NCBI RefSeq assembly: GCF_007997285.1
Contig: NZ_VORX01000008.1
Span: forward strand, 1 to 64,000
Length of the DNA stretch: 64,000 bases
Source of the DNA: Gelidibacter salicanalis
Lineage (GTDB): Bacteria; Bacteroidota; Bacteroidia; Flavobacteriales; Flavobacteriaceae
Direction of reading: 5' to 3'
Position 1 is the stretch's first letter; each line of letters begins with the position of its first letter. The position numbers and the translations under genes were made by a program. Below are positions 11,415 through 47,593 of this stretch, piece after piece. The notes below the pieces were generated by a model, which was not told the origin of the DNA, searched no databases, and was given only the letters and a program-made list of their open reading frames with translations.

Positions 11415-13859
11415 CTAATTTCCAATACGAATAATATCCGCAAACAAGCCTGACGCCGTCACATCTGCTCCAGCTCCAGCACCTTTAATAATCATCGGCT
11501 GCTCCGGGTAGCGTTGGGTATAAAACATGACAATATTGTCCTTGCCCTGTAAATTATAGAAGGGATGCTCCTTAGGTATTTCTTTCAGTCCTACCTTAGC
11601 CTGACCATTATTAAATTCTGCCACATATTTTAACTGACATGCGTTATTTTTAGCTGATGCAAACAGGTTTTGAAAGTGTGCTTCATCTGCTATAAGCGTT
11701 TCATAAAAATCGTCAACAGAATTGCTGTTCAAATTGTCTTTGGTCAAAAATGAGGTGTTTTCAATATCCTCTAAGTTGAGTTGTGTTCCACTTTCTCTCG
11801 CGAGGATCAATATTTTACGTGCCACATCAACACCACTTAAATCAATCCGTGGATCCGGTTCTGTATAGCCTTCTTTTTGCGCCTGTTTTACAACATCATG
11901 GAATTTTGTACCATCATCAAAATTGTTAAACACAAAATTTAAACTTCCTGAAAGCACCGCCTGAATGGAGGTAATTTTATCGCCCGAAGCAATGAGGTGA
12001 TTTAAAGTGTCAATCACTGGCAATCCCGCACCAACGTTAGTTTCGAACAAAAATGGAGCGCTGTACTTAACAGACAGCTTTTTTAAAGTACTATAATTTT
12101 CAAAGGCACTGGAACAGGCTATTTTATTGCAGGCTACCACAGCAATACTTTCTTTTAAATAATCGGCATAAATTGTAGAAACCTCCTCATTGGCAGTGAC
12201 ATCTACAAAAATACTGTTGCGAAGGTTGAAGCTTTTATTGCGCTCCAAGAAACCTTCTATGGAAGCCATTTCTCCTATAGCCAATTGCTCCTTCCAATCT
12301 TTTAAAGACAATCCAGATTCATCAAAAATCATGTTCCGGGAATTGGATAAGCCAATAATTCTCAAATTGATTTTAAGTTGTTCTTTAAGATATTTCCGTT
12401 GCTGCTTGATCTGCTCTACTAGGCGTTCTCCTACATTTCCAACACCAGTTATATACACATTCAGTTGCTTGGTTTGATCCTCAAAAAACCCTTCATGAAT
12501 GGTGTTCAGTGCTTTTTTGACATCTTTTTGGGCAATAACCGTAGAGATATTTTTTTCTGAAGCACCCTGAGCGATGGCTCTAATGTTGATATTATTTCTG
12601 CCTAAAGCACTAAACATGCGGCCACTGATGCCTTGGTGATTTTTCATATTATCTCCAACCAAGGCCACAATAGAAAGATCTTTTTCAACAATGATCGGAT
12701 CAATTTTTTTCAAGGCAATTTCATTTTCAAATGTTTGATTGATGCTGAGGGCAGCGAGATAGGCATCACCTTCATCAATTCCAAAACAGATAGAATGTTC
12801 CGAAGAGGCTTGTGTGATAAAAATGACATTAATTTTCTCTATGGCCAAGGTTTCAAACAAGCGTTTAGAAAATCCGGGAATACCCACCATGCCATGTCCT
12901 TGTAACGTTAATAACGCAATATTGTTAATGTTGGTGATGCCTTTGGCAGCATTGTGAAAGCCGTTACTTTTATCATTCGTAATGATGGTGCCACGTGCTT
13001 CCGGATCAGAAGTATTTTTAATATGAATGGGAATCTCCAAATTCAAAACCGGCTGAACTGAAGGCGGGTAAAGTACTTTTGCTCCAAAATGCGACAATTC
13101 CATCGCTTCCTGATACGACAATTTTTCAATAGGATAGGCTTGTTTGACCAGTTTAGGATTGGCGGTATACATACCACTGACGTCCGTCCAAATTTCCAAA
13201 CGGTTAACTTTTAAAGCTGCCGCAACAATAGCCGCGGTAAAATCTGAACCGCCACGGCCCAAGGTGGTAATTTCGCCTGATTCAGATTTTGAGACAAAGC
13301 CGGGGAGGATTGTAATTCTCTGACTGACATCCTTAAAATAGTCTTGAATGTTAGCATTCGTAATGCCGTAATTAACTTCGGCTTTTGTAAAATTAGCATT
13401 GGTCACCACCAAATCTTGACAGTTTTTGCGAAGTGCATCTAACCCTTGATGTTTCAGACTTTCTGCAATAATGTAGGAGGAAAGGAGCTCTCCAAAACTT
13501 ACCAGTTTATCTTTTGTTTTTGGAGACAATTCATTAATGAGATAGATGCCATCCAATAAACTTTTTAAACTCGCTAAAGTACTTTCCACATACTCTTTGG
13601 CACTGTCGTTTTTATTGGAAATAAGCTCAGATAAAATAGTGAGATGTATGGCTTTAATAGTTTTAAATTCAGAGAGGTAGCTTTCGTTTTTTTGTTGAGC
13701 CAATTCACCGGCGTTCAATAATTTATCGGTAATACCACCTACTGCTGAAACCACGCAGATTACCGGTTCTGTTTGTGAATAATCATCTAATATCTTGATG
13801 ACTTTTTTTATATTTTCTGAGGAACCCACTGAAGTCCCTCCAAATTTTAATACGTTCAT
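11415..13859 (-). CDS. thrA: Bifunctional aspartate kinase / homoserine dehydrogenase I
   Basis: An 814-residue fusion. The aspartate kinase domain starts at MNVLKFGGTSVGSS and carries FGELLSS and GRGGSDFTAA. Two ACT-type regulatory stretches follow at about 310-450. The homoserine dehydrogenase domain starts near residue 465 with the NAD-binding VYITGVGNVGERL and includes SGSLNFVFNNF. It catalyses the first and third steps from aspartate to threonine and is expected to be feedback-inhibited through the ACT domains. It heads the thrABC operon, downstream of a threonine/isoleucine-rich leader peptide. Confidence 0.97.
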   Translation of the reverse strand: MNVLKFGGTSVGSSENIKKVIKILDDYSQTEPVICVVSAVGGITDKLLNAGELAQQKNESYLSEFKTIKAIHLTILSELISNKNDSAKEYVESTLASLKSLLDGIYLINELSPKTKDKLVSFGELLSSYIIAESLKHQGLDALRKNCQDLVVTNANFTKAEVNYGITNANIQDYFKDVSQRITILPGFVSKSESGEITTLGRGGSDFTAAIVAAALKVNRLEIWTDVSGMYTANPKLVKQAYPIEKLSYQEAMELSHFGAKVLYPPSVQPVLNLEIPIHIKNTSDPEARGTIITNDKSNGFHNAAKGITNINNIALLTLQGHGMVGIPGFSKRLFETLAIEKINVIFITQASSEHSICFGIDEGDAYLAALSINQTFENEIALKKIDPIIVEKDLSIVALVGDNMKNHQGISGRMFSALGRNNINIRAIAQGASEKNISTVIAQKDVKKALNTIHEGFFEDQTKQLNVYITGVGNVGERLVEQIKQQRKYLKEQLKINLRIIGLSNSRNMIFDESGLSLKDWKEQLAIGEMASIEGFLERNKSFNLRNSIFVDVTANEEVSTIYADYLKESIAVVACNKIACSSAFENYSTLKKLSVKYSAPFLFETNVGAGLPVIDTLNHLIASGDKITSIQAVLSGSLNFVFNNFDDGTKFHDVVKQAQKEGYTEPDPRIDLSGVDVARKILILARESGTQLNLEDIENTSFLTKDNLNSNSVDDFYETLIADEAHFQNLFASAKNNACQLKYVAEFNNGQAKVGLKEIPKEHPFYNLQGKDNIVMFYTQRYPEQPMIIKGAGAGADVTASGLFADIIRIGN

Positions 13860-32183: not shown

Positions 32184-32876
32184 TTAATAATGTTTGAAAT
32201 CATAATATTCTACTGATTCAATCTGGCCTTTTACTGATATGGCACCAATATAGTCTTGATTTGGTGAGAAAGTAAATAGGCTCCAATTATTTTTTTCTGC
32301 TTCTTCCCATTTGGTTTCTAATACCTCTGTTTTTATAGTTGAATTTATACAAACAGAAAACGAATCAAGCGGAAATGAAAGCCCTTGTGCCTTCGCTTTT
32401 ATAAAAGATTCCTTACGGGTCCAGCATCTATAAAAGGCTTCAGTTAGTTTGTTTTTAGGAATTTTATTCAATGCTTCTATTTCAAGATCTGAAAAGAAAT
32501 TTGAGGCTATCTCCATCACGTCAAAATCGGGTTTTATTTTTTCTATATCAACGCCGATAGCATGGTCCAATACAAAAGCCAAAATAGCCATCGTTCCGGA
32601 ATGAGAAATATTAAAATTTAATGGCGTTTCCAAATCGAAATCTGGTTTACCAAACTCACCATATTTAAAACCAATTTCTTTCGGATCTTTATTGAGATAT
32701 TTTCCAGATAAAATCCTTAAAGCACCTCTAGAAACAACCAATTGATTTCTATTTTTTTTAAATTTGAATTTAGATGCTTTTAAAGTTTCCTCTTGAGATA
32801 AGAGGTTAGCATAACTCTTATCGGTATCTGTATTTACATAATATGTATGTATTATATTTGGTTTAATAGGGTACAT
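32184..32876 (-). CDS. 4'-phosphopantetheinyl transferase (Sfp type)
   Basis: This 230-residue enzyme has the superfamily motifs: NISHSG (89-94), GVDIEKI (108-114, Mg-binding Asp/Glu) and WTRKESFIKAKAQG (152-165). Size and motif spacing fit the Sfp/EntD group used for peptide synthetases. It transfers phosphopantetheine from CoA to the carrier-domain serine. It is the last minus-strand gene of the peptide cluster, 314 bp past the TonB receptor gene, and should activate the carrier domains encoded at 36.0-40.4 and 43.6-47.6 kb. Confidence 0.93.
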   Translation of the reverse strand: MYPIKPNIIHTYYVNTDTDKSYANLLSQEETLKASKFKFKKNRNQLVVSRGALRILSGKYLNKDPKEIGFKYGEFGKPDFDLETPLNFNISHSGTMAILAFVLDHAIGVDIEKIKPDFDVMEIASNFFSDLEIEALNKIPKNKLTEAFYRCWTRKESFIKAKAQGLSFPLDSFSVCINSTIKTEVLETKWEEAEKNNWSLFTFSPNQDYIGAISVKGQIESVEYYDFKHY

Positions 32877-35514: not shown

Positions 35515-35970
35515 TTAAACTAGCCGTGGAGGCAACTCTATAATCTCTAAAAAACCGACTATGACTTTATTTATGGGATTGTCGTCGTTATTTTGAATAA
35601 CAGTTGGGAGAATCTTTGATAGTGTTAAAATATTGGTTGATATATGTTTGTCGATCAGATAGGTGTTGAGTAGGTTTTTATTATCTAAATCAAGCCCGTC
35701 TGACGGATTAATTAGCGCGGCAATACGATTAAGTGCGTTATGATTATGCGCTCGCAAATGATCGTGTTCATGATTTAAATTTTGTTTTTCTTTTTGATTG
35801 ATTTTGGTAGCGCTAACCGTGACATCTGGGGGCGAAATGATGTGTGAAACCTCATGAAAAACAGTGTATATGACTTGATGACAAGGATTGGCTAAATAGC
35901 AAAGCCCTATGAGCAATGCCATATATTTCAAAACCCAGGTTTTCAAACCATTTCTGTAATTTACACTCAT
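35515..35970 (-). CDS. Small His-rich exported or membrane-anchored protein
   Basis: A 151-residue protein. Residues 12-36 are hydrophobic (VLKYMALLIGLCYLANPC) and could be a signal anchor. His31, His39 and His43 follow, then the His-rich stretch NHEHDHLRAHNHN (66-78). The C-terminus ends ELPPRLV. Small proteins with a hydrophobic N-terminus and His clusters often sit beside metal-linked TonB receptors in Bacteroidota (recalled, not checked). It lies 34 bp after the peptide synthetase and 95 bp before the receptor gene. A periplasmic metal-binding role is a guess from composition and place. Confidence 0.7.
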   Translation of the reverse strand: MSVNYRNGLKTWVLKYMALLIGLCYLANPCHQVIYTVFHEVSHIISPPDVTVSATKINQKEKQNLNHEHDHLRAHNHNALNRIAALINPSDGLDLDNKNLLNTYLIDKHISTNILTLSKILPTVIQNNDDNPINKVIVGFLEIIELPPRLV

Positions 35971-36004: not shown

Positions 36005-39000
36005 TTATTCTTCTAAAAGTGCCATTAATGTATTTTCTATATACCTACTATATTCTGCAATGGTTGGCAGTTCAAATATTTTATTCAAGGGTAGATTTAA
36101 TTCGATTTCGTCATTTATTCTAGCTGTTACACGAATTGCGGCCAAAGAGTGTCCTCCCAAAGCAATAAAGTTATCATAGATACCCACTTTTTTAAGTTGT
36201 AGAACATCCTGCCATATCCGCTCCAAAATTTCTTCTATCTCATTTCTAGGCGCGGCATAGGGCGTTTCTAATTCCAGTTGAACGCTCGTTAAGTTTTGCA
36301 AAGCTTTTTTGTCTACTTTGCCATTCTTGGTTAACGGAATTTTGTTTAAATGCTTAAAAACGGTAGGCACCATATAGGAGGGAAGTCTCAATGCGGCAAA
36401 TTCTCTAATGTCTTTGAGTGATAAATTAGGGTTTCCTGTGTAATAGGCCACAAGCTTATCTGTGTTCTGCCAATCTTCCTCCGATTTGTCATAACCAATT
36501 TCTTTCAGGATTCGTTTGGCCTCAGCCTCGTCAATAACTTCATTTATTTCTTCCAGACTCTCGTCGCGGGTTTTATGACCTAATCTGACATCCCAACTGT
36601 ACGGAAATGAATAGTTACTATATCCCATTTCTTTTTTATGAACATAGATACCCACTTGATTTATGAGACAGTTGGTTGATCTACCAGTATCAGTTGGTCT
36701 CACCCAACCTACATTTTCCTTTAAATAGACGAGCATATCTTCCAGGCTTACGTCGCTAAAACGGTAGAAATCCACGAATTCTACCTTTTCAAAAACACGA
36801 TCATCTTCAAAAATGGAAACATCGAGAAGTCTTTTAACCGCATCATCCTCTTGGTGGTACAATTTACGAGCTTCTAGAATGGTCTGATCAATCACCTTGG
36901 AATCTAAGGTATCGTCCGAAAAAAGTTCTTCTGTAAGTCTGGTCTCAAAAAATTGACCTCTTGAAAGACCCGTAACAATATATGGGATTTCCTTTTTTAA
37001 AGCGATTTGAGTACTTATCGTGTAGATGGTCTTAAAGCATCCGTTGCAGACATTATGGTGTCTGTGAAGGCTATCGACAAAAATATCGTTCATGTGAGGT
37101 GTTTCGCCGTAAACATGATCAACCCCTAATTTTTTAACGATCGTAGTAATATTTGCCTTGGCTTGATCGGAAATGTAGCCATTGTCCATGGTGAACGCTA
37201 GCACTCTTAATCCCATATTAACCAATCTGGATAAAACGTAAGTACTATCTTTGCCACCACTGAGCAGTGAGATGCAATCATAATTAGGATTTTCATCTCT
37301 TTTGGAAGTCAACAACTTTACCAACTCATCATCATTTTTAAAATAGCGCTCAACTTTCGTTTTATAATCTTCGAATGACGTACAGAGATGGCATATGCCA
37401 TATTGATTAAAATCGGTATTTGGATAATTTGATGGCAGCCCACATTTTATACAATTCACGATATCGTCTTCAGGAATATGGATGTCATCCTTTATCAATA
37501 CAACGGCACAATTATCTACTTCCGGATGATGGACAAGATTCGATTCGATATCTGATAATTCGATCCGATAGCCTCTCAATTTCACTTGGTCATCTGTTCG
37601 TCCTAAATACTCCAGTTCTCCGTCATTATTGATGCGGCCTAAGTCACCAGACTTGTACATTTTAGAACCTTCGAAAAATGGATTTTCTACAAATTTAGCT
37701 GCTGTCATTTCTGGAGAGCTGATATAGCCTTCAGCTAAACCGATACCACTTAAATACAATTCTCCAATAACACCTTGGGGAACACTATTTTTATAGCTAT
37801 CCAAAACATAAACTTGCATATTATCAATTGGTTTCCCAATGGGTACGGACGATCCCAGGTGCATTTGAGCGTCATACTCACTCACGATGCAGCCTACAGT
37901 GGCCTCAGTTGGACCATACTCATTATAGATTTTAATCGGATTAAGGAATAACGATTGAATCGATTGCGCGAGTGCTACCTTTAAATCTTCACCGCCAATA
38001 ATCATGGTGTCAATATTGGAGGAGCTGAGTTTTTTTTCTTGAACGAGAGCTAAATGCGACGGTGTTAGTTTAATAATATTCACCAAGTTATCTTCAAAAA
38101 CCTGTAATAGGCTCACATCGGGACCGGAAGTGTTTTCTTTATAAGTTATAATCCGACCGCCACTAATTAAGGGTAATAAGGTAGAGGTTATAGTAAGGTC
38201 AAAACCGATAGAACTAAATAAAGGAACTATTGATTTTTCATTAATAGTGTAATTTGTCTTTGACCATAACAAATAATTAGTAAGTGCTCTGTGAGATATA
38301 CAAACGCCTTTCGGAACTCCCGTGCTACCCGACGTATATAAGATATAGGCTAAGTCGCTCGTTTTTACATCGTTTTGAATGGTCGAGAACGGCTGATTAA
38401 AGATTTCTGAACTTTCTTTATTGATGTCACATACTTGGTTTGCGCTTAAATCTAGGTTTTTAGTCAATCCACTTTCTGTTAAGACTAGTGATGCATTTGC
38501 ATTTTTTAGAATAAAACTGATGCGTTCAGGTGCTTGGTCAGTGGGTATTGGAATAAAGGTCGCTCCTAATTTTAATACGGCTAAAACACCAATGATATAG
38601 TCTGGATTTCTATAAAAATGAAGGGCTATCTTTTGATTTTTACGAATGCCTTTTTCGTGTAAATAATGAGCGAGTTGATTGGCTTTCTTATTAAGCTCAG
38701 AATAGGTTAAGGTTCGTCTGCCCCCTTGTATTGCTACAGCATTTGGCCTGTTTAAGGCATGTTCTTCGAAATAGGTGATTGCCGTTCCAGTCGGTTCTAC
38801 GATTTTAAAATTGGGATCTATGAGTGATTTTTGCTCTGTAGGTGATACTAAACTGGGCACTGAAATACATGTTTCAATATCATCGAGCATGGCATCCAAA
38901 AGACTCAATAAATGACCAGACACCCTTTCTCTTAGATTAGAATTAAATGTGCCGTGATTTAAATCTAACATGATTTTAAATTCTCCGTTAGAATCAGGTA

Positions 39001-40132
39001 CCATGACGTGGCATCTCATTTGGTGGTTACTATCAATATGACCCGTATAAATCCATTCTGACGTGGTTGGGAAGCCATTGAAATTTGAAAATCCAGTATG
39101 TATATAGTTCAATACAACGTTAAAACTATTGCTGATTTCAGAAGTAATTGTATCCTGTAAGGCGTGTTTTAAATTGTTGTTATTTTCAAGCTTTACCCGC
39201 TGTAAAATCGATTTAAAACTATCCGTTTCTTCAATCTCAGTCATCATTGGGAAAATCTCAAGAAAGTAGCCCACGGTATTATGAAATTTTCTTTGAATCC
39301 TATTGTGTAAAGGCGCTCCTATAGCCAACTTTTTTTGATCGCTAACCCGATACATATAAATGAACAGGAGACTTGACAGGACATTAAATAAAGCTAATTG
39401 AGCGGTCCATCCCTTCACTTCAGGACGTTGTAAGAAGACATGTAATTTTTGTGAGCGGTCAGCACCCAAAGGGATATAAATTCTTGAGGCCTCGGTGGCG
39501 TTTGGTTTGGGATGAATTCCATAGAAGGATGGAAGTTTTTCAACCTCATGAACTTTCGAAGACCAATAGCTGTCGTCATCAATTTTTGAGCTCGCGGCTT
39601 GTAATTCAGAGGTCACATAGTCTAAATACGTGACGCTATATTCGGGTTGAAATGAATTGAAATCATTTATTATTGCTTTGTAATAGCTATTCATCCGGTC
39701 AAAAACAATCTTTCGAGAAACCCCGTCAGTAACCAAATGATGCATGTTCATGAACCAGATATAACTGTTCTCACTCTTTTTGATCAGAACAGCGTCAAAT
39801 ACCTGTTGTGATAAATTCAACTTTTCCAAACTGCGGTTCAATAGCCAATCTGTAATCACATCACTTTCTGAATCCAAAGAAAAATCGAGGTATTCGATGT
39901 CATATTTTAAGCTATCTTTTGCTTCCTGAAATGGAATACCGTCTTCTTCATAAAATCGGATTCTTAAGGCATCAGTGGCGTTAATTAAGAATTGAAAAGC
40001 ATTCTTAAAAATGTTTTGGTCAATTGGCCCTGATATTTCATAAGTATAAGCGGTGTTATATAAGGGAATGTCTGGATTGATTTTCTGACCAATCCAGAGC
40101 GATAGTTGACTTGCAGTGAGCTTTAACTTCAT
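36005..40132 (-). CDS. NRPS module C-A(PP-loop insertion)-PCP, predicted Asn-specific
   Basis: One continuous 1375-residue frame. The condensation domain (about 1-430) has HHLVTDG at 131-137. The adenylation core (about 450-870) has A3 TSGSTGVPKG, A5 NEYGPTE (737-743), A7 YKSGDLGR and A8 ending RGYRIELSDIE (863). After AVVLIKDD an extra domain runs from about 885 to 1222: CIKC and CHLC (Cys894/897/914/917), PP-loop SGGKDS (958-963), CNGC (Cys1029/1032) and Cys1155. The A domain then resumes with KLVAYYTG, A9 LPSYMVP and A10 NGKVDKK. The carrier Ser1329 is in LGGHSL. Substrate residues aligned to GrsA read D645, L646, T649, K688, I711, G713, E738, V746, G747, K1272, one change from the Asn code DLTKLGEVGK. 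PP-loop enzymes activate carbonyls with ATP for sulfur or nitrogen transfer. It is 27 bp after the carrier-protein gene. Confidence 0.92.
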   Translation of the reverse strand: MKLKLTASQLSLWIGQKINPDIPLYNTAYTYEISGPIDQNIFKNAFQFLINATDALRIRFYEEDGIPFQEAKDSLKYDIEYLDFSLDSESDVITDWLLNRSLEKLNLSQQVFDAVLIKKSENSYIWFMNMHHLVTDGVSRKIVFDRMNSYYKAIINDFNSFQPEYSVTYLDYVTSELQAASSKIDDDSYWSSKVHEVEKLPSFYGIHPKPNATEASRIYIPLGADRSQKLHVFLQRPEVKGWTAQLALFNVLSSLLFIYMYRVSDQKKLAIGAPLHNRIQRKFHNTVGYFLEIFPMMTEIEETDSFKSILQRVKLENNNNLKHALQDTITSEISNSFNVVLNYIHTGFSNFNGFPTTSEWIYTGHIDSNHQMRCHVMVPDSNGEFKIMLDLNHGTFNSNLRERVSGHLLSLLDAMLDDIETCISVPSLVSPTEQKSLIDPNFKIVEPTGTAITYFEEHALNRPNAVAIQGGRRTLTYSELNKKANQLAHYLHEKGIRKNQKIALHFYRNPDYIIGVLAVLKLGATFIPIPTDQAPERISFILKNANASLVLTESGLTKNLDLSANQVCDINKESSEIFNQPFSTIQNDVKTSDLAYILYTSGSTGVPKGVCISHRALTNYLLWSKTNYTINEKSIVPLFSSIGFDLTITSTLLPLISGGRIITYKENTSGPDVSLLQVFEDNLVNIIKLTPSHLALVQEKKLSSSNIDTMIIGGEDLKVALAQSIQSLFLNPIKIYNEYGPTEATVGCIVSEYDAQMHLGSSVPIGKPIDNMQVYVLDSYKNSVPQGVIGELYLSGIGLAEGYISSPEMTAAKFVENPFFEGSKMYKSGDLGRINNDGELEYLGRTDDQVKLRGYRIELSDIESNLVHHPEVDNCAVVLIKDDIHIPEDDIVNCIKCGLPSNYPNTDFNQYGICHLCTSFEDYKTKVERYFKNDDELVKLLTSKRDENPNYDCISLLSGGKDSTYVLSRLVNMGLRVLAFTMDNGYISDQAKANITTIVKKLGVDHVYGETPHMNDIFVDSLHRHHNVCNGCFKTIYTISTQIALKKEIPYIVTGLSRGQFFETRLTEELFSDDTLDSKVIDQTILEARKLYHQEDDAVKRLLDVSIFEDDRVFEKVEFVDFYRFSDVSLEDMLVYLKENVGWVRPTDTGRSTNCLINQVGIYVHKKEMGYSNYSFPYSWDVRLGHKTRDESLEEINEVIDEAEAKRILKEIGYDKSEEDWQNTDKLVAYYTGNPNLSLKDIREFAALRLPSYMVPTVFKHLNKIPLTKNGKVDKKALQNLTSVQLELETPYAAPRNEIEEILERIWQDVLQLKKVGIYDNFIALGGHSLAAIRVTARINDEIELNLPLNKIFELPTIAEYSRYIENTLMALLEE

Positions 40133-40159: not shown

Positions 40160-40396
40160 TTAGGTTCGGGATTGTGATAAATAATTAGAAATGCTTCGAA
40201 CGGAATTGAAATTTTCAACGGTCATGTCCTCCGGATTTATAGTCATATGAAATTCTTTTTCCAAGAATACAATCAGTCGCATCATGCCCAAAGAATCTAC
40301 AATGCCATTTCCTAAAAGGTCTTCATCTAATTGAATTTCATCTAAAGATTCTAAAGAAATTTCCTCCTTAATGTAGTTAATGATAATGTCGTTCAT
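40160..40396 (-). CDS. Free-standing acyl/peptidyl carrier protein
   Basis: A 78-residue acidic helical protein. The phosphopantetheine serine is Ser35 in NGIVDSLGMM, the DSL motif of carrier proteins. Its start overlaps the stop of the upstream adenylation gene by 4 bp (ATGA), indicating translational coupling. Together the pair would load one amino or carboxylic acid for the first condensation domain downstream. It is too diverged from fatty-acid AcpP (DSLD/E context) to be the housekeeping carrier. Confidence 0.9.
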   Translation of the reverse strand: MNDIIINYIKEEISLESLDEIQLDEDLLGNGIVDSLGMMRLIVFLEKEFHMTINPEDMTVENFNSVRSISNYLSQSRT

Positions 40397-41964
40397 AGGG
40401 TTTGAGATTCAATCAATTCGATTATTTTTTTTCGATCTATTTTTCCGGTTCCAGTTCTTGGAAATTTGTGTATAATACTAATGGTTTGTGGTACCATATA
40501 ATAGGGCAGGTGTAGTTTACAATATTCAATGATCTCATTAGTGTTAATTTTCGCGCCAGCTACTAAACCAATCACAGCTTCAAGCTCAGGTATTTCTTTA
40601 TCTTTTTTTACCACAATGGCAGCGGCTTCGCTAATGAGTTCATTTTTTTGTAAGAGGGCTTCTATTTCGTCCAATTCAATTCTATAGCCTCTGAGTTTTA
40701 TTTGACGATCAATCCGTCCCAAAATCATAAGTTCATTATTAGTATTCTCGTACACCAAATCACCAGTTCTATAATAAACGTGATGATATCCAGGAGCCAT
40801 TTCTACTTTGAAAAAGGATTTTTCAGTGAGATTTTTATTATTCCAATAGCCAATCATCATGGTGGCCGTTCTGATCACCAGTTCTCCAGATTCACCTATT
40901 TTTACATCTTTATTTTCAGTGTCTAAGATTTTGTATTCGGTATTTTTCCAAACCGTACCTAATGGAATCGGGGCGTCAGTTGCAGGTGGTTTATCCAAAA
41001 TATAATAGGTGCAGCGTGCAACTTCGGAAGGCCCGTATGAATTAATGAACTTAGCATGTGGCCATTTCAGCATCAATTGCCTCAGCTGTTTGACGGGAAA
41101 TACCTCACCGCCAAATCTTACCCAGCGTAAAGTACTAAAATCATGATTATCAATGTTGCCGTGGAGCAAAACCTGGATCAAAATAAGCGGCACGGAAAAC
41201 CATATCGTGATTTGCTCCTTGGCCACTAATGCAGATAAACTAGCGGGTAACTTGACGTAGGCATCAGGAAAAATAACGGTTGTGGCGCCAACTAATGGTC
41301 CTGAGAAGTAGCCAAAAAGGGATTGGTCAAAGTGTAATGGCGCGAAATTTCCAATAATATCGCTTGAATTTGATTGATGTAAATCGGCTTCAAGTTTAGC
41401 CAAGCTTAGCAAACCGTGATGGGAATGCATAATACCTTTTGGCATTCCGGTAGATCCAGAGGTATATAAAATTGAGGCCAGATCATGTTCTAAGATTGTC
41501 TGTGGCACATAGTTATCCAACGGACGCAAAAATATGGATTCCCAAGAAACGTTCATACCATCTAAATCCTCCGATAGTCCAATGACATGTTTTACAACGT
41601 TGGATATTTGAGTAATTAATTTGATTTTCCGAGTTTGCGCTGATGTTGTAATAATATGTTTAATGCCGCAATCATTTAAAATTACAAGAATTCGTTCCAA
41701 AGGTAAAAACGGATCTATGGCAACAAAAGCGCCGCCCGATTTAAGAATGCCATATACAGCAATGGCAGAATCAAGACAACGATTCATCAAAATAGCCACA
41801 CGATCTCCACGTACGAGGTCTTTTTCCATGAGACATGATGATAGCTGATTAGCCTTAGTGTCTAGTGCTTGATAAGAGATAGAAATATCTAAACATTTGA
41901 ATGCCTCTTTTTTAGGATAGCGAGTGGCTGATTGCTCAAGTAAATTCGCAATATTATAAATCAT
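40393..41964 (-). CDS. Stand-alone adenylation enzyme (loads the carrier protein)
   Basis: A 523-residue ANL-family enzyme without condensation or carrier domains. It has A3 YTSGSTGMPKG (167-177), A5 NSYGPSE (308-314), A7 YRTGDLVYE and A8 GRIDRQIKLRGYRIE. The catalytic Lys508 is in TGTGKIDRK. Specificity positions aligned to GrsA read about D-Q-F-F-R-G-S-R-C-K, which matches no code I can name. Asp213 at the first position favours an alpha-amino acid. First gene of the minus-strand arm of the cluster, so it likely supplies the starter unit. Confidence 0.9.
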   Translation of the reverse strand: MIYNIANLLEQSATRYPKKEAFKCLDISISYQALDTKANQLSSCLMEKDLVRGDRVAILMNRCLDSAIAVYGILKSGGAFVAIDPFLPLERILVILNDCGIKHIITTSAQTRKIKLITQISNVVKHVIGLSEDLDGMNVSWESIFLRPLDNYVPQTILEHDLASILYTSGSTGMPKGIMHSHHGLLSLAKLEADLHQSNSSDIIGNFAPLHFDQSLFGYFSGPLVGATTVIFPDAYVKLPASLSALVAKEQITIWFSVPLILIQVLLHGNIDNHDFSTLRWVRFGGEVFPVKQLRQLMLKWPHAKFINSYGPSEVARCTYYILDKPPATDAPIPLGTVWKNTEYKILDTENKDVKIGESGELVIRTATMMIGYWNNKNLTEKSFFKVEMAPGYHHVYYRTGDLVYENTNNELMILGRIDRQIKLRGYRIELDEIEALLQKNELISEAAAIVVKKDKEIPELEAVIGLVAGAKINTNEIIEYCKLHLPYYMVPQTISIIHKFPRTGTGKIDRKKIIELIESQTL

Positions 41965-42319: not shown

Positions 42320-43579
42320 ATGAGAAAGTTACCCCTTCAAATTACTTTCATTTTACTTTTTTTGATCCCAATTTTTTCATACGCACATAAACCTGATAGG
42401 AGTGTTGTTTACCTCAGAATCTATGAAACTGGGGGAGTTGAGGGCCATTTTGATCTTGGCGCTGAAGATTTAAAAAAATATTTAGACTTTGACCTTAATT
42501 TGCATCCAACTCTGCAAGAGGTTGAACGCTATAAAGAAAAGATTCGCGAATATATTGTAAGGCATGCTTCCTTTTCTTCGCGCTATGGAGCACATAAAAT
42601 CGTGTTTACTGATGAGATGAGCATCCTAGATATAAGCTCAGGCTCTTTTGTTATTTCAAATTTCTATCTGGACAATATGGAGGTTGTACCCGATAATTTG
42701 GAGGTGAGCTTTACCGTATTTTTAGATGAGAATCCGATGCATACAAATGGCTTAGGAATAGAATATAATTGGAAGGCGGGCCTCATCAATAACGAGAAAA
42801 TTATCGCACTAGATTTTTCTACAAGTCACCGAACTAAAACTTTGGATTTAACGGATACTTCTGTTTGGAAGGGTTTTTTGGCCATGATAAAGCAAGGTAT
42901 GTTACATATCTGGGTAGGAATGGATCATGTACTCTTTTTATTGGCTTTAATATTACCATCGGTTGTAAGGCGACGACGTTTGACAGCAGGAATAGCATCT
43001 GATACTGTTGAAGAATCAGGGTATACCATCTGGGGATGGCAACCGGTGCAGAAATTTAGACCCGCATTCTTGTATATTTTAAAGATAGTTACCTTTTTCA
43101 CCATTGCCCATACCATAACCTTAAGCTTAGCAGCACTTCAAATTGTAGTGCTACCATCTTGGTTGGTGGAATCCATTATCGCGTTTTCAATAGGTCTTGC
43201 AGCTTATCATAATATCAGACCTGTCCTTGTTGGTAGAGATTGGATTATTGCTTTTGTTTTCGGACTTTTTCATGGCTTCGGTTTTGCAACGGTGTTGGGT
43301 GAACTTGGGTTTAAAGGAGAAAATCTATCGCTTTCATTGCTTGGTTTTAATATTGGCGTGGAAATAGGCCAAGTAGTAATCATCGCATTAATATTCCCAT
43401 TTCTATTCCTTATGAGAAAACTTAGGGTGTATCCGAAATTTATGGTCATCATATCGGTCATTTTGATCCTAATTTCTATTTATTGGATGATAGAACGACT
43501 TTTTGATGTCGATTTTCCATTGGATGAATATGTGTTAAACAAACTTCTTCCGGCTGCCAAATGGATCGGTTTAAAATAA
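42320..43579 (+). CDS. HupE/UreJ-like metal permease with extracytoplasmic N-domain
   Basis: A 419-residue protein. A signal peptide ends at about residue 22 (SYAH). A soluble domain of about 165 residues follows, then six or so membrane segments (190-415). HIWVGMDH (196-203) and FHGFGFA (His318 onward) are the metal-family motifs of HupE/UreJ, which transport nickel or cobalt in studied bacteria; FTIAHTITL adds another conserved histidine. The peptide synthetase starts 24 bp downstream, so the two are probably one operon. The metal is not readable from sequence. Confidence 0.88.
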   Translation: MRKLPLQITFILLFLIPIFSYAHKPDRSVVYLRIYETGGVEGHFDLGAEDLKKYLDFDLNLHPTLQEVERYKEKIREYIVRHASFSSRYGAHKIVFTDEMSILDISSGSFVISNFYLDNMEVVPDNLEVSFTVFLDENPMHTNGLGIEYNWKAGLINNEKIIALDFSTSHRTKTLDLTDTSVWKGFLAMIKQGMLHIWVGMDHVLFLLALILPSVVRRRRLTAGIASDTVEESGYTIWGWQPVQKFRPAFLYILKIVTFFTIAHTITLSLAALQIVVLPSWLVESIIAFSIGLAAYHNIRPVLVGRDWIIAFVFGLFHGFGFATVLGELGFKGENLSLSLLGFNIGVEIGQVVIIALIFPFLFLMRKLRVYPKFMVIISVILILISIYWMIERLFDVDFPLDEYVLNKLLPAAKWIGLK

Positions 43580-43603: not shown

Positions 43604-46600
43604 GTGGAAGCAGATAATACAAAACGATTATTAGATAAATGGAAAAATAGCGACAAAAAAAAGTCGCTACAAACCTCTATTGTGAAAGCGCCGCCCGGAC
43701 TTCCAATACCTCTGACCAGTGGCCAACAACGCTTATGGTTTTTACAGCGTTTATTGCCCGAAAATCCAGTTTATAACTACTCAGAAAATTTTGTTTTAAC
43801 GGGTGAATTGAATATTCTGGCTTTCGCTCATTGCTTAAAACAGATTTTTGAAAACAATAGCATATTAAGATCTACATATTCCTATGTTAATGAGCAGCCT
43901 GTTCAATTAATTCATGATGGGCCTGAGATTAAACTGAACATGTTTGATTTAAGTAAGTTGTCAACCGAAGATAAGGAAAAACAAAAGCATGACCTGCTTT
44001 TATCCGACGCTAGGCTTCCATTTAGTTTGGATGTGTTTCCATTAGTAAGAACTACCTTAATAAAATTGAGTGATTCTGAACATGTTTTTTTAATGACCAT
44101 GCACCATATCATTTTCGATAAATGGTCTATGGATCTCTTCTTAAAAAAATTATCCACTGCCTACCGCAACTTTTTTGAAAGTCAAGATGTTTTAAAGAAT
44201 GATAGTGATCTTCAGTTTTCAGATTATGCATTTTGGCAAAGGAGCAGGGTGGTGTATAGCGATCAATTAGCTTATTGGAAAACAAAATTGGGTGGAGAAA
44301 TTCCATTTTTAGACCTTCCAACAGACTACCCTCAACCAGCTCGACCAACTTATAAAGGGACTTCATATAGATCGCAGTTTTCTAATGAATTATCGACACG
44401 TGTACTAGAGTTATGTAAAACTCTAGATACTACGCCGTATGTTTTGCTGCTGTCAGTTTATTATGTGTTGCTCTATAAATATAGTGGACAGAAAGATATT
44501 TTGGTTGGTTCACCAATTTCTCATAGAACTAGCAAGGTGCTAGAGAATATGATTGGATTTTTTGACGAAACAGTTGTTCTAAGAACGCGCGTTGTTCCGG
44601 AAATGACCTTTTCAAATTTTGTTACAACAGTAAAAGAGAATACATTGAAAGCTTTTGCGAATAAGGATGTGCCTTTTGAAGCATTGGTCAAAGAATTAAG
44701 TCCTCAGAGATCTTTGAGTGTCAATCCCTTTTTTCGAGTGATGTTTATTTATCATTCGGTTCAAAAGTCGCCTCACTTTGGTTCTGGATTGGAGCTGTCC
44801 CATTCATTTTTTAATCCAGGGGTATCCAAATTTGATCTTACACTTTATATAGCCAATGACAATGGTCAACTCTCTAGCGGATTTGAATATGCAAGCGATA
44901 TTTTTAAAGAGACTACAATAATTCAATTGCAGGAGCATCTTACATTGTTTCTGGAAACTGTAACTAAAAACCCAGAACAGAATATTTTGGAAGTTGACAT
45001 GTTGACGGTCAAAGAAAAACAATTCTTTTTTGAAAATACGAATCAGAATTCAAACTTTTTTCAAGAATTTCAAGGTATACATCATATCATTGAAAGTGTT
45101 GGCAAAATTAGTCCGCAAAAGACCGCCGTTACTTTTAAGAACGAATCTATAACTTACAAGACACTAAATGAAAGGGCCGATGCCTTGGCTGCTACCATCT
45201 TAAATCACACAAAAAATCGAAAGGAGATCATAGGCTTGTGTATTGACCGATCGCTTGAGATGATTATAGGCATGCTTGGAATCCTAAAAGCTGGCTGTGG
45301 GTATTTACCGCTAGACCCCGATTACCCCAAAGACCGTTTGGATTTTATCTTGAAAGATGCAGAATGCAACCTGTTGATTACCCAAACATTTATAAAAAAG
45401 CAGTATGAGGAGTCTGGGGTGCAAATGCTGTATATTGACAGTAACGAAATAATAAACGACCATAAAGATTTTAATCCTCCCATCATAAAAGAAGATGATA
45501 TCGCCTACGTTATTTATACCTCTGGAAGTACCGGATGGCCTAAAGGAGTTCCAATTTCGCATAAAAACATAATAAATTCGACGGCTGGACGCTTAGATTT
45601 CTACCCGGAGAATCCCGACGTTTTCTTGTTAATGTCTTCAATTTCTTTTGATAGTTCAAAAGCCGGAATTTTCTGGACCTTATGCACAGGTGGTAATCTG
45701 GTGATTACTGAGAAAAAAGCAGAACAGGATATTGCGCATCTAGAAGCCTTGATCCAGAAAAATTCTGTCACACATACTTTAATGCTTCCTTCTTTATATA
45801 AATTGATTCTTGAGCATGGTTCGATTTCTAATTTAGTTAGCTTGAAAGCGGTTATTGTAGCGGGCGAGGCCTGTTTACCTGAGTTACGCAACCTACATTT
45901 TGAAAAATTGGAAACGGTAAATTTGTATAACGAATACGGCCCTACTGAAGCATCCGTATGGTGTACCGCCTTTCGCATAAAAAAGACTGATGCTGATATC
46001 ATTCCCATCGGAAAACCTGTGGCCAATGCTAAGATGTATCTCTTAAATGAAACTCTTGATATGGTGCCTTTTGGCGCTGTAGGTGATATGTATGTGGGAG
46101 GTCCTGGCCTAACTAAGGGTTATATTAACAAGCCTGAATTAAATAAAAAGGTCTTTTTAAACAATCCTTTCAACAACAATTCTGATGGACGCTTATATAA
46201 AACTGGCGATCGTGGGCGCTATGACCAGGAAGGAAATATCGAATTTTTGGGCCGGATTGATGAGCAGGTTAAAATCAGAGGACACAGAATTGAACTTGAT
46301 GAAGTTGAAAAAGCGATGCGTCAAATATTTACGAACAACAAAATAGTCGTTTTAGTAGAAGAAAAAAATGCCATTAAACGGCTGATTTCATTTGTAGAGG
46401 CTAGTGAGCCACTCGATTTATTAGCAATTAAAGCGACTTTAAAGGAAATACTTCCTGATTTTATGATTCCCTCGGCAATTTATCCCATTGCGGAGTTTCC
46501 GTTTTTACCGAATGGAAAAATCGACAAGAAATCGCTCTTAGGCATTGAGAGACATACATCATCAAGTCCTTTAGGTGCGCACGAATTGCCAACAAGTGAA

Positions 46601-47593
46601 ACCGGCGCAAAATTATTAAATATTTGGCAACAGGTGCTCGGTCTTAGCACCGTGAGTGTCAATGATAACTTTTTTGAGATAGGCGGGGATTCAATCCAAA
46701 GCATACAAATGCTCGCCATGGCCAGAAAGGAAGGTATTATTATAACTCCAAACCAGATCTTTGAATACCAAACCATAAAAGAGCTCGAAGATTTTATATC
46801 GAAAAATAAGGATACTGATGAGCAATGGGATTATTTAGTTCCCTTTCGTAAAACGGGAAGCAAGAAACCGTTGTTCTGTCTTCATGCAGGTGGAGGAAAT
46901 GTGTTTTTTTATAAGGGCTTGATCGATTATATTGATCCTAATAGGCCATTATATGGTATTCAGGCTTCCGGTATGTATGGTAAAAAACACAAAATGCATA
47001 GTACTATATCTGAAATGGCCAATGATTATATCGCCGCAATAAAAACGGTGCAACCAGACGGTCCTTATAATATTGTGGTGTATTGCTTTAGTGCCTCAGT
47101 GGGTCATGAAATGGCCATCAAATTTAAAAATTCTGGTGAAAAATTTAATCTGATAGTCATGGATACTATGGCAAAACCTTGGTCCTTGAATACTCCAAAT
47201 CGTATTAAGATTCGCGTAATTGGATTTGTGAACAGGCTTTTAAAAAATCCTGTTTCCACCATTAAAAATATGATTTCAATACGATTAAATAAAGCATCAA
47301 GTCGTCATAAAGTTCATGGAGGTAATGGAGAAAAGACACTTGAGGACTTGCAAGAAAATTTAGAACGGTTGTCGTTGTCTTATCAGTGGGAGGTGTTCGA
47401 TGGAAAAATTTCATTAATTCTAACGGAAAAAGCTCATGGCAGTTTAAACAAGGAAACGATCAATTCTTGGCAAGAATTTGCTGGTGGCGGTGTTACTGTT
47501 TTGAGAACCAAAGGACATCATAATGACCTTTTTAATAAAGAAAACTTACCTTATGTAACTAAGATAATTGAGGAGTGTATTGTGGATAACTAA
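43604..47593 (+). CDS. NRPS termination module C-A-PCP-TE
   Basis: 1329 residues from a GTG start at 43604; no in-frame ATG lies close by. The condensation domain (about 35-470) has HHIIFDKWS, with Lys at the last position of HHxxxDG. The adenylation domain (about 490-985) has YTSGSTGWPKG (638-648), NEYGPTE (776-782) and PNGKIDKK. Carrier Ser1030 is in IGGDSI. The thioesterase (about 1075-1329) has VVYCFSASVGHEMA where GxSxGG is expected; alignment to EMA puts Cys1161 at the nucleophile position. Asp1187 and His1305 fit the triad. Specificity positions read about D-S-A-L-I-A-E-V-W-K, with no confident substrate. It should extend and release the peptide. Confidence 0.93.
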   Translation: MEADNTKRLLDKWKNSDKKKSLQTSIVKAPPGLPIPLTSGQQRLWFLQRLLPENPVYNYSENFVLTGELNILAFAHCLKQIFENNSILRSTYSYVNEQPVQLIHDGPEIKLNMFDLSKLSTEDKEKQKHDLLLSDARLPFSLDVFPLVRTTLIKLSDSEHVFLMTMHHIIFDKWSMDLFLKKLSTAYRNFFESQDVLKNDSDLQFSDYAFWQRSRVVYSDQLAYWKTKLGGEIPFLDLPTDYPQPARPTYKGTSYRSQFSNELSTRVLELCKTLDTTPYVLLLSVYYVLLYKYSGQKDILVGSPISHRTSKVLENMIGFFDETVVLRTRVVPEMTFSNFVTTVKENTLKAFANKDVPFEALVKELSPQRSLSVNPFFRVMFIYHSVQKSPHFGSGLELSHSFFNPGVSKFDLTLYIANDNGQLSSGFEYASDIFKETTIIQLQEHLTLFLETVTKNPEQNILEVDMLTVKEKQFFFENTNQNSNFFQEFQGIHHIIESVGKISPQKTAVTFKNESITYKTLNERADALAATILNHTKNRKEIIGLCIDRSLEMIIGMLGILKAGCGYLPLDPDYPKDRLDFILKDAECNLLITQTFIKKQYEESGVQMLYIDSNEIINDHKDFNPPIIKEDDIAYVIYTSGSTGWPKGVPISHKNIINSTAGRLDFYPENPDVFLLMSSISFDSSKAGIFWTLCTGGNLVITEKKAEQDIAHLEALIQKNSVTHTLMLPSLYKLILEHGSISNLVSLKAVIVAGEACLPELRNLHFEKLETVNLYNEYGPTEASVWCTAFRIKKTDADIIPIGKPVANAKMYLLNETLDMVPFGAVGDMYVGGPGLTKGYINKPELNKKVFLNNPFNNNSDGRLYKTGDRGRYDQEGNIEFLGRIDEQVKIRGHRIELDEVEKAMRQIFTNNKIVVLVEEKNAIKRLISFVEASEPLDLLAIKATLKEILPDFMIPSAIYPIAEFPFLPNGKIDKKSLLGIERHTSSSPLGAHELPTSETGAKLLNIWQQVLGLSTVSVNDNFFEIGGDSIQSIQMLAMARKEGIIITPNQIFEYQTIKELEDFISKNKDTDEQWDYLVPFRKTGSKKPLFCLHAGGGNVFFYKGLIDYIDPNRPLYGIQASGMYGKKHKMHSTISEMANDYIAAIKTVQPDGPYNIVVYCFSASVGHEMAIKFKNSGEKFNLIVMDTMAKPWSLNTPNRIKIRVIGFVNRLLKNPVSTIKNMISIRLNKASSRHKVHGGNGEKTLEDLQENLERLSLSYQWEVFDGKISLILTEKAHGSLNKETINSWQEFAGGGVTVLRTKGHHNDLFNKENLPYVTKIIEECIVDN

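Follow-up and report, generated by a model that had tools for sequence, protein, structure and literature searches.

In the biosynthesis of closthioamide, CtaC acts on a peptide bound to a carrier, adenylating its amides and inserting sulfur; in the excerpted text of the report on this enzyme, cysteines 154, 157 and 284 are given as Fe-S ligands and D77 and S78 as active-site residues, and the exchanges D77A and S78A abolish activity while C154A, C157A and C284A diminish it (PMC6772006). CtaC targets backbone amides, was inactive on the tested substrates that lacked carrier attachment, and has homologs mostly in anaerobes; the same excerpts call thioamide nonribosomal peptides "exceedingly rare" and CtaC the first such enzyme to be reconstituted (PMC6772006). 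In the sugar amidotransferase LpNASAT, the tetracysteine motif CxxC..[GN]xCxxC binds zinc, as stated in excerpts of its report (PMC10607449); further background came from excerpts on nitrile formation (PMC13060819), LarE (PMC9283937), thioamide mining (PMC13185837) and adenylation (A) domains (PMC11253843).

The window, that is, the whole stretch of 64,000 nucleotides of Gelidibacter salicanalis DNA that was analysed, encodes a nonribosomal peptide synthetase (NRPS) whose A domain is interrupted by a PP-loop domain (Table 1). The categorization of interrupted A domains by Lundy et al. from 2020 reportedly concerns methylation domains; in the NRPS described here, an A core up to a8, a foreign domain and the a9-a10 part follow each other in the same frame. 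Domain order, motifs, Asn-type code, conservation, neighbours and predicted fold were computed for this locus. A first-pass annotation of the DNA had described an uninterrupted frame of 1375 residues, the A domain of which is broken by about 340 residues after A8 and before A9/A10; the frame was borne out, the interruption measures 337 residues, and the cysteines and the SGGKDS motif lie exactly where they had been placed. The interval it had given, 36800-37490, is too short and takes in roughly two thirds of the insert; the domain itself reaches 36467. Pfam AMP-binding covers residues 455-803, TIGR01733 ends at residue 877 and Pfam AMP-binding_C begins at residue 1225; among related loci, the distance from A8 to the insert is 35-36 residues wherever it could be measured (31 of 81), and the HHxxxD motif of the condensation (C) domain is found in 78 of 81 modules, the remaining three being truncated. 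An assembly artefact was considered and dropped because the identical fusion recurs in many independent genomes.

Table 1. Features of the NRPS locus, in window coordinates
Feature	Position	Strand	Basis
Phosphopantetheinyl transferase, probable carrier activator	32184..32876	-	PF01648 E 2.1e-17
TonB-dependent receptor, 742 aa	33191..35419	-	Pfam
Small His-containing protein, 151 aa, N-terminal hydrophobic stretch	35515..35970	-	no Pfam match
NRPS, C-A(PP-loop insert)-T, 1375 aa	36005..40132	-	ORF + Pfam
Thiolation (carrier) domain, residues 1303-1365 (PP-binding)	36038..36226	-	Pfam
A domain resumes, A9-A10 subdomain, residues 1223-1300	36233..36466	-	Pfam, model
Inserted PP-loop (AANH) domain, residues 886-1222 (337 aa)	36467..37477	-	profile, alignment, model
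Cys 1155 (TNC), third candidate Fe-S ligand	36668..36670	-	kept in 88/88 rows
CxxC (1029, 1032), first two candidate Fe-S ligands	37037..37048	-	kept in 88/88 rows
PP-loop SGGKDS, residues 958-963	37244..37261	-	sequence, alignment
Tetracysteine CxxC...CxxC (894, 897, 914, 917), likely zinc	37382..37453	-	alignment
Adenylation core A1-A8, residues 455-884, code DLTKIGEVG (Asn type)	37481..38770	-	Pfam, TIGR01733
Condensation domain, residues 3-437, HHLVTDG motif	38822..40126	-	Pfam
Free carrier protein, 78 aa	40160..40396	-	PF00550 E 2.1e-8
Stand-alone adenylation enzyme, 523 aa, probable starter-unit loader	40393..41964	-	Pfam
HupE_UreJ_2 permease, His directly after signal-peptide-like leader	42320..43579	+	PF13795 E 6.9e-44
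Second NRPS, C-A-T-TE, code DSALVGEVW	43604..47593	+	Pfam, code reading

The embedded architecture is a widespread and conserved type. Inserts 72-88% identical to that of the window lie in NRPS frames of five of 58 relatives (own genome excluded), and four more of the 58 have a stand-alone protein only, 25-35% identical. A scan of genome contigs confirmed 138 relatives, of which the best 80 were kept (L025-L104); the search for further A domains with the same insert, which the first-pass annotation had proposed, thus returned the insert within an A-domain frame at 80 of 80 loci (best 80 of 138), some of them ended by contig edges. By record titles, from which all group labels were taken and among which metagenome-assembled contigs are many, the embedded loci belong mainly to Bacteroidota and also to Acidobacteria, Acidimicrobiia, Anaerolineae and Opitutales; named strains are found in Zobellia, Arenibacter, Maribacter and Gelidibacter. 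Two of 13 matched plasmid records carry the embedded form, both from Rhodobacterales (Roseovarius, Pseudohalocynthiibacter). In wider samples the embedded form is uncommon: it was found in one of 295 genomes of the window's phylum besides its own (two more matches are stand-alone), in two of 295 from the phylum of L092 (six further matches are not embedded, judged by frame size) and in none of 200 from the phylum of L103, where further matches, in six genomes, fall in frames 339-485 aa long. Loci L020-L024 duplicate L025, L037, L038, L041 and L059, L108 is nearly the same as L105, and L143 lies on the contig of L100. Genome G351 has two embedded copies (L092, L175) on separate contigs.

The best PP-loop profile for the insert is TIGR03573 (WbuX), which matches residues 894-1211 with an E-value of 5.8e-38 and 131.2 bits in the whole protein and with 136 bits when the insert is searched alone, a match well beyond chance, but in both cases below the curated family cut-off of 203.2; the tetracysteine CxxC..[GN]xCxxC and the SGGxDS of sugar amidotransferases are both present. 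The closest solved chains by sequence profile are 8cnz (E 9.5e-9; LarE by its title) and 8WEX (E 5e-8). An AlphaFold2 model of the insert, built from 54 sequences, has a mean pLDDT of 91.5 and a pTM of 0.90, in agreement with a domain that folds independently, a point that the first-pass annotation had proposed to check by structure prediction. Its top match in a Foldseek search of the PDB is LpNASAT (8WEX; TMq 0.64 and 0.58, rmsd 9-11 A); lower matches are TtuA and YcfA (TMq 0.30-0.39) and LarE, mixed with argininosuccinate synthetase (TMq 0.26-0.37), and those to sulfur enzymes have low TM-scores with an rmsd of about 6-17 A. In a model of A domain, insert and carrier (T) domain (pLDDT 85.6), the insert lies between consecutive strands of the small A subdomain (425-433 and 779-786 in model numbering), and the low pTM of 0.53 leaves the mutual placement of the domains unsettled. 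The first-pass annotation had seen in the insert a PP-loop domain of mixed WbpG and TtuA character; profile and fold uphold both points, with 8WEX first, TtuA weaker by fold, and a CxxC...C triad next to the tetracysteine, and none of the outcomes that it had named as speaking against the PP-loop identity was encountered.

Cysteines 9, 12, 29, 32, 144, 147 and 270 of the insert (own numbering) are kept in 87-88 of 88 aligned rows, six of which are near-duplicates (L020-L024, L108). Held against the printed residue numbers of CtaC, the insert presents the same combination of PP-loop, CxxC and distant cysteine: its D77, S78, C144, C147 and C270 are kept throughout the aligned rows. The insert is fused beside a T domain and may thus act on a carrier-bound substrate. 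By analogy, the closest characterized function would be that of CtaC, an Fe-S thioamide synthetase. The reading we prefer, at a little less than an even chance, is that the insert is a carrier-acting, CtaC-like thioamide synthetase within an Asn-specific A domain and that the peptide made is a chelator of copper or nickel. The A domain would load Asn on its T domain, and the C domain would attach to it a starter acyl group delivered by the free carrier protein. With ATP, the insert would then adenylate an amide oxygen on the T-bound residue, that of the Asn side-chain carboxamide being the likeliest, and sulfide at a [4Fe-4S] cluster held by Cys 1029, 1032 and 1155 would displace AMP to give the thioamide. 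The second NRPS would extend and release the peptide, which would chelate copper or nickel and be taken up via the TonB receptor and the HupE_UreJ_2 permease. In this scheme we infer the Fe-S cluster, the sulfur, the choice of amide, the timing, the product and the metal. A gene for a sulfur donor was not recognized among the recurrent neighbours of the embedded loci; the closthioamide cluster, as excerpted, is also devoid of one (PMC6772006).

Alternatively, the insert might adenylate an amide carbonyl and let ammonia displace AMP, whereby an amidine would be formed in the manner of WbpG/WbuX. This we regard as unlikely, although TIGR03573 is the best profile and 8WEX the best fold, the tetracysteine is common to both, some family members have a CxxC...C, and ammonia might be used in its free form. 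The partners of sugar amidotransferases are HisH and HisF, and the neighbours found here agree with this: in 33 distinct control loci (L015, L016, L018, L113-L142), of about 4 kb each so that the true rate may exceed the count, HisH adjoins the amidotransferase in 24 and HisH or HisF in 26. L017 is the same locus as L142, and L110 and L111 (the query sources), L158 (HisH found), L109 and L157/L177 (none) stand outside this count. In contrast, an unfiltered DNA search found HisH at 0 of 80 embedded loci (L025-L104, best 80 of 138), and HisF and AsnB at 0 of 81 each (80 of these the best of 138); L105 alone has a truncated hisH, which belongs to a polysaccharide cluster at a distance of about 12 kb. 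Besides its score below the cut-off, the insert is set apart from the family in a tree of 63 chosen rows (two identical; long branches for L107, L147, L148 and L166, odd make-up of L176 and L107), in which a branch supported by 100/98 divides 24 inserts and the non-embedded L106, L107 and L176 from 36 other PP-loop rows, i.e., amidotransferase-like, asparagine-synthase-fused and unclassified ones; the clade of the inserts themselves is supported by 90/77. A plain sugar amidotransferase was likewise considered and dropped because of the score, the tree and the absence of HisH.

The CxxC...C triad is missing from 20 of 22 aligned canonical amidotransferase members (the 22 being those of 30 fetched loci that yielded a usable protein), which also speaks against the amidine. 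However, the triad by itself does not prove sulfur chemistry, since it is also found outside the insert clade, in the amidotransferase-like L110, L123, L129 and L157 (= L177), in L147 and L148 and perhaps in L166, and HisH and HisF adjoin two of these (L110, L123). Thioamide formation is favoured over the amidine because HisH accompanies the control loci and not the embedded ones, because the layout of the cysteines parallels that of CtaC, CtaC-like residues included, and because of the metal-uptake setting described below. Two other groups of PP-loop proteins came to notice: L110 (2995-4200), L123, L129 and L157 share a CWHC...EC pattern and may be a subgroup of Fe-S amidotransferases, and L112, L144, L145 and L146 (about 600-680 aa) join a glutaminase-like N-terminus (MCGIFG start, by eye) to an amidotransferase-type PP-loop.

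The three non-embedded relatives on the insert side of the tree differ in setting. L106 is a separate PP-C protein, the gene of which is tightly clustered with asnB and the gene of an A-T protein (L106:14190-20112) whose A domain is without the Asn code; L176 (4930-9868) stands alone, with a carrier, an AMP-binding enzyme and AsnB nearby, among glycosyltransferase genes; and L107, also stand-alone, has an acyl carrier protein and a ketosynthase as neighbours. With a root placed among the amidotransferases, the tree would suggest that a stand-alone, carrier-acting enzyme came first and was later built into an A domain.

The first-pass annotation had called the A domain asparagine-type, with which the code readings agree. 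The code of the window NRPS belongs to a type that we take to specify Asn, as we also take the mapping of the code positions; DLTK[VLIF]GE[VI]G or DLSKVGEVG is read in 85 of 87 related modules (L020-L024 and L108 included), the other two being truncated, and with duplicates removed the Asn-type code is present at all 79 readable loci of L025-L105 (81 loci, 80 of them the best of 138). L173 (DLTKVGEVA), L174 (DLTKVGEVG) and L175 (DLTKLGEVG) have Asn-type codes, too. It is possible that conservation of the code in the embedded copies reflects common descent alone. Together, the code kept in embedded copies and AsnB adjoining two of the three non-embedded relatives (L106 and L176, few cases as these are) hint at a primary carboxamide, the Asn side chain, as the target. 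The A domain beside L106, without the Asn code, and the embedded loci, with AsnB at 0 of 81 (80 of these the best of 138), count against the proposed scheme.

An Asn carboxamide could also be adenylated and lose AMP by elimination, giving beta-cyanoalanine by chemistry of the QueC type. Such nitrile formation would need no external donor, in line with the donor gene missing from the recognized recurrent neighbours, and would suit the conserved Asn-type code; further, the window NRPS matches the QueC family of Pfam (23 bits, cut-off 22), and the insert has a weak sequence-profile match to the PP-loop nitrile synthetase 9leh (E 0.042). It is nevertheless improbable in our view: the QueC match is marginal and spans about 75 residues, those of L105, L106 and L176 fall below the cut-off (20.5-21.8 bits), and the CxxC...C triad is left unexplained.

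What lies around the NRPS bears on its product. A permease of the copper/nickel-binding type, a TonB-dependent receptor and a His-rich protein adjoin it, which suggests that the product may be a metallophore, and soft thioamide sulfur suits copper. Metal-linked uptake genes are retained beside the synthetase: a DNA search of the 81 loci L025-L105 (80 of these the best of 138) found the receptor at 62, HupE at 62, a His-rich protein at 39-41, an acyl-CoA dehydrogenase at 37 and a member of the ornithine cyclodeaminase family at 34. Counts from ORF lists were 62, 59, 43, 34 and 30, respectively; such lists drop frames overlapped by longer ones, AsnB of L176 among them, for which reason neighbours were recounted on the DNA, and 67 of the 81 loci extend 5 kb to both sides of the NRPS. 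Neither the dehydrogenase nor the cyclodeaminase was seen beside the NRPS of the window. For the dehydrogenase of L041 the nearest families are PigA and RedW, which act on prolyl carriers; its scores stay below the cut-offs of both, and the match suggests a pyrrole-type starter, derived from proline, in that locus. At the place of the free carrier protein, a counterpart is found in five of five relatives (L020-L024), and the code of the second NRPS is fixed as DS..GEVW in 42 of 42 counted.

In all 60 HupE proteins inspected, that of the window included, a His follows the signal-peptide-like leader (37 by pattern, 23 by eye), and HX5DH is present in 59 of the 59 longer ones. In this His they resemble the copper- and nickel-binding anglerases, and for a HupE-type protein with a His after the leader, excerpts of the report give binding of Cu at 74 nM and of Ni at 220 nM; the same excerpts hardly mention TonB and draw no link to an NRPS (PMC12537917), and those of a paper on a copper-regulated receptor do not mention HupE (PMC10422930). 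Compared with solved structures, the TonB receptor of the window has weak matches only, FecA and BtuB first. A count of 8-mers over 49 intergenic regions revealed no metal-linked promoter word; the shared upstream 8-mers are mostly AT-rich and none occurs in more than 22 of the 49.

Two observations on neighbouring genes may be added. The second NRPS, intact in the window, is frequently encoded by two genes elsewhere, with the break inside the A domain close to A8/A9 (L033, L036, L043, L049, L068, L070, L085 and others); the tails look helical and some loci have a gene of 262-263 aa between the halves. At L090, a protein of 633 aa (11507-13408) that is, by eye, like B12-binding radical SAM enzymes adjoins the embedded NRPS.

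A chelating product would also fit adenylation of the backbone amide followed by attack of the Asn side-chain nitrogen, which would close a six-membered ring and so give a cyclic amidine able to bind metal through nitrogen; this cyclization requires Asn and no external donor, but accounts neither for the triad of Fe-S type nor for the AsnB neighbours of L106 and L176, and as we know of no precedent for such a reaction it seems quite improbable. That the insert is structural or regulatory, e.g., a sensor of oxygen or iron without catalysis on the peptide, is hardly to be expected, as SGGKDS and many flanking residues do not vary among the aligned rows and no other part of the protein is as well conserved as the insert (mean identity 70%, against 61% for T, 50% for A and 38% for C, in loci picked by the insert and thus biased).

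Returning to the thioamide synthetase, we advance tentatively, and with more doubt than confidence, that modules with a built-in Fe-S enzyme of this kind make thioasparagine-containing chelators of copper (or nickel) and constitute an unrecognized class of nonribosomal thioamide metallophores spread over several bacterial phyla. If so, many testable producers would be at hand among the named strains of Zobellia, Arenibacter, Maribacter and Gelidibacter, and a new type of interruption would be available for A-domain engineering, possibly along with a new strategy of metal scavenging.

Searches of the open-licence literature listed no description of an NRPS with a PP-loop domain and no characterized protein with this order of domains, in keeping with the remark of the first-pass annotation that no characterized NRPS of this form was known to it; as far as these searches show, the architecture is undescribed and adds a further type to the interrupted A domains. 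Like KtzH, TioS and IndC, the window NRPS has a catalytic domain between a8 and a9; the inserts listed in the excerpted reviews are methyltransferases, oxidases/monooxygenases and reductases, with no PP-loop domain among them (PMC11355689, PMC8949500). WbuX, WbpG and LpNASAT share tetracysteine and SGGKDS with the insert and are its best match in profile and fold, yet it scores beneath their cut-off, is without HisH (0 of 80, the best of 138) and falls on the opposite side of the tree. TtuA and the [4Fe-4S] LarE have in common with it the PP-loop, the three-cysteine CxxC...C cluster motif and a related fold, but they act on tRNA or nucleotide-cofactor substrates and are remote in sequence, with low TM-scores. 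Many hosts of the embedded form are presumably aerobic, unlike the mostly anaerobic hosts of CtaC homologs. CtaC itself, judged from the residue numbers printed in the excerpts, has the PP-loop, the CxxC and the distant third cysteine at similar spacing; while it is a stand-alone enzyme of an NRPS-independent pathway that acts on backbone beta-alanine amides (PMC6772006), the insert is embedded in an A domain of the Asn type and is, by this analogy, probably a variant of the CtaC kind.
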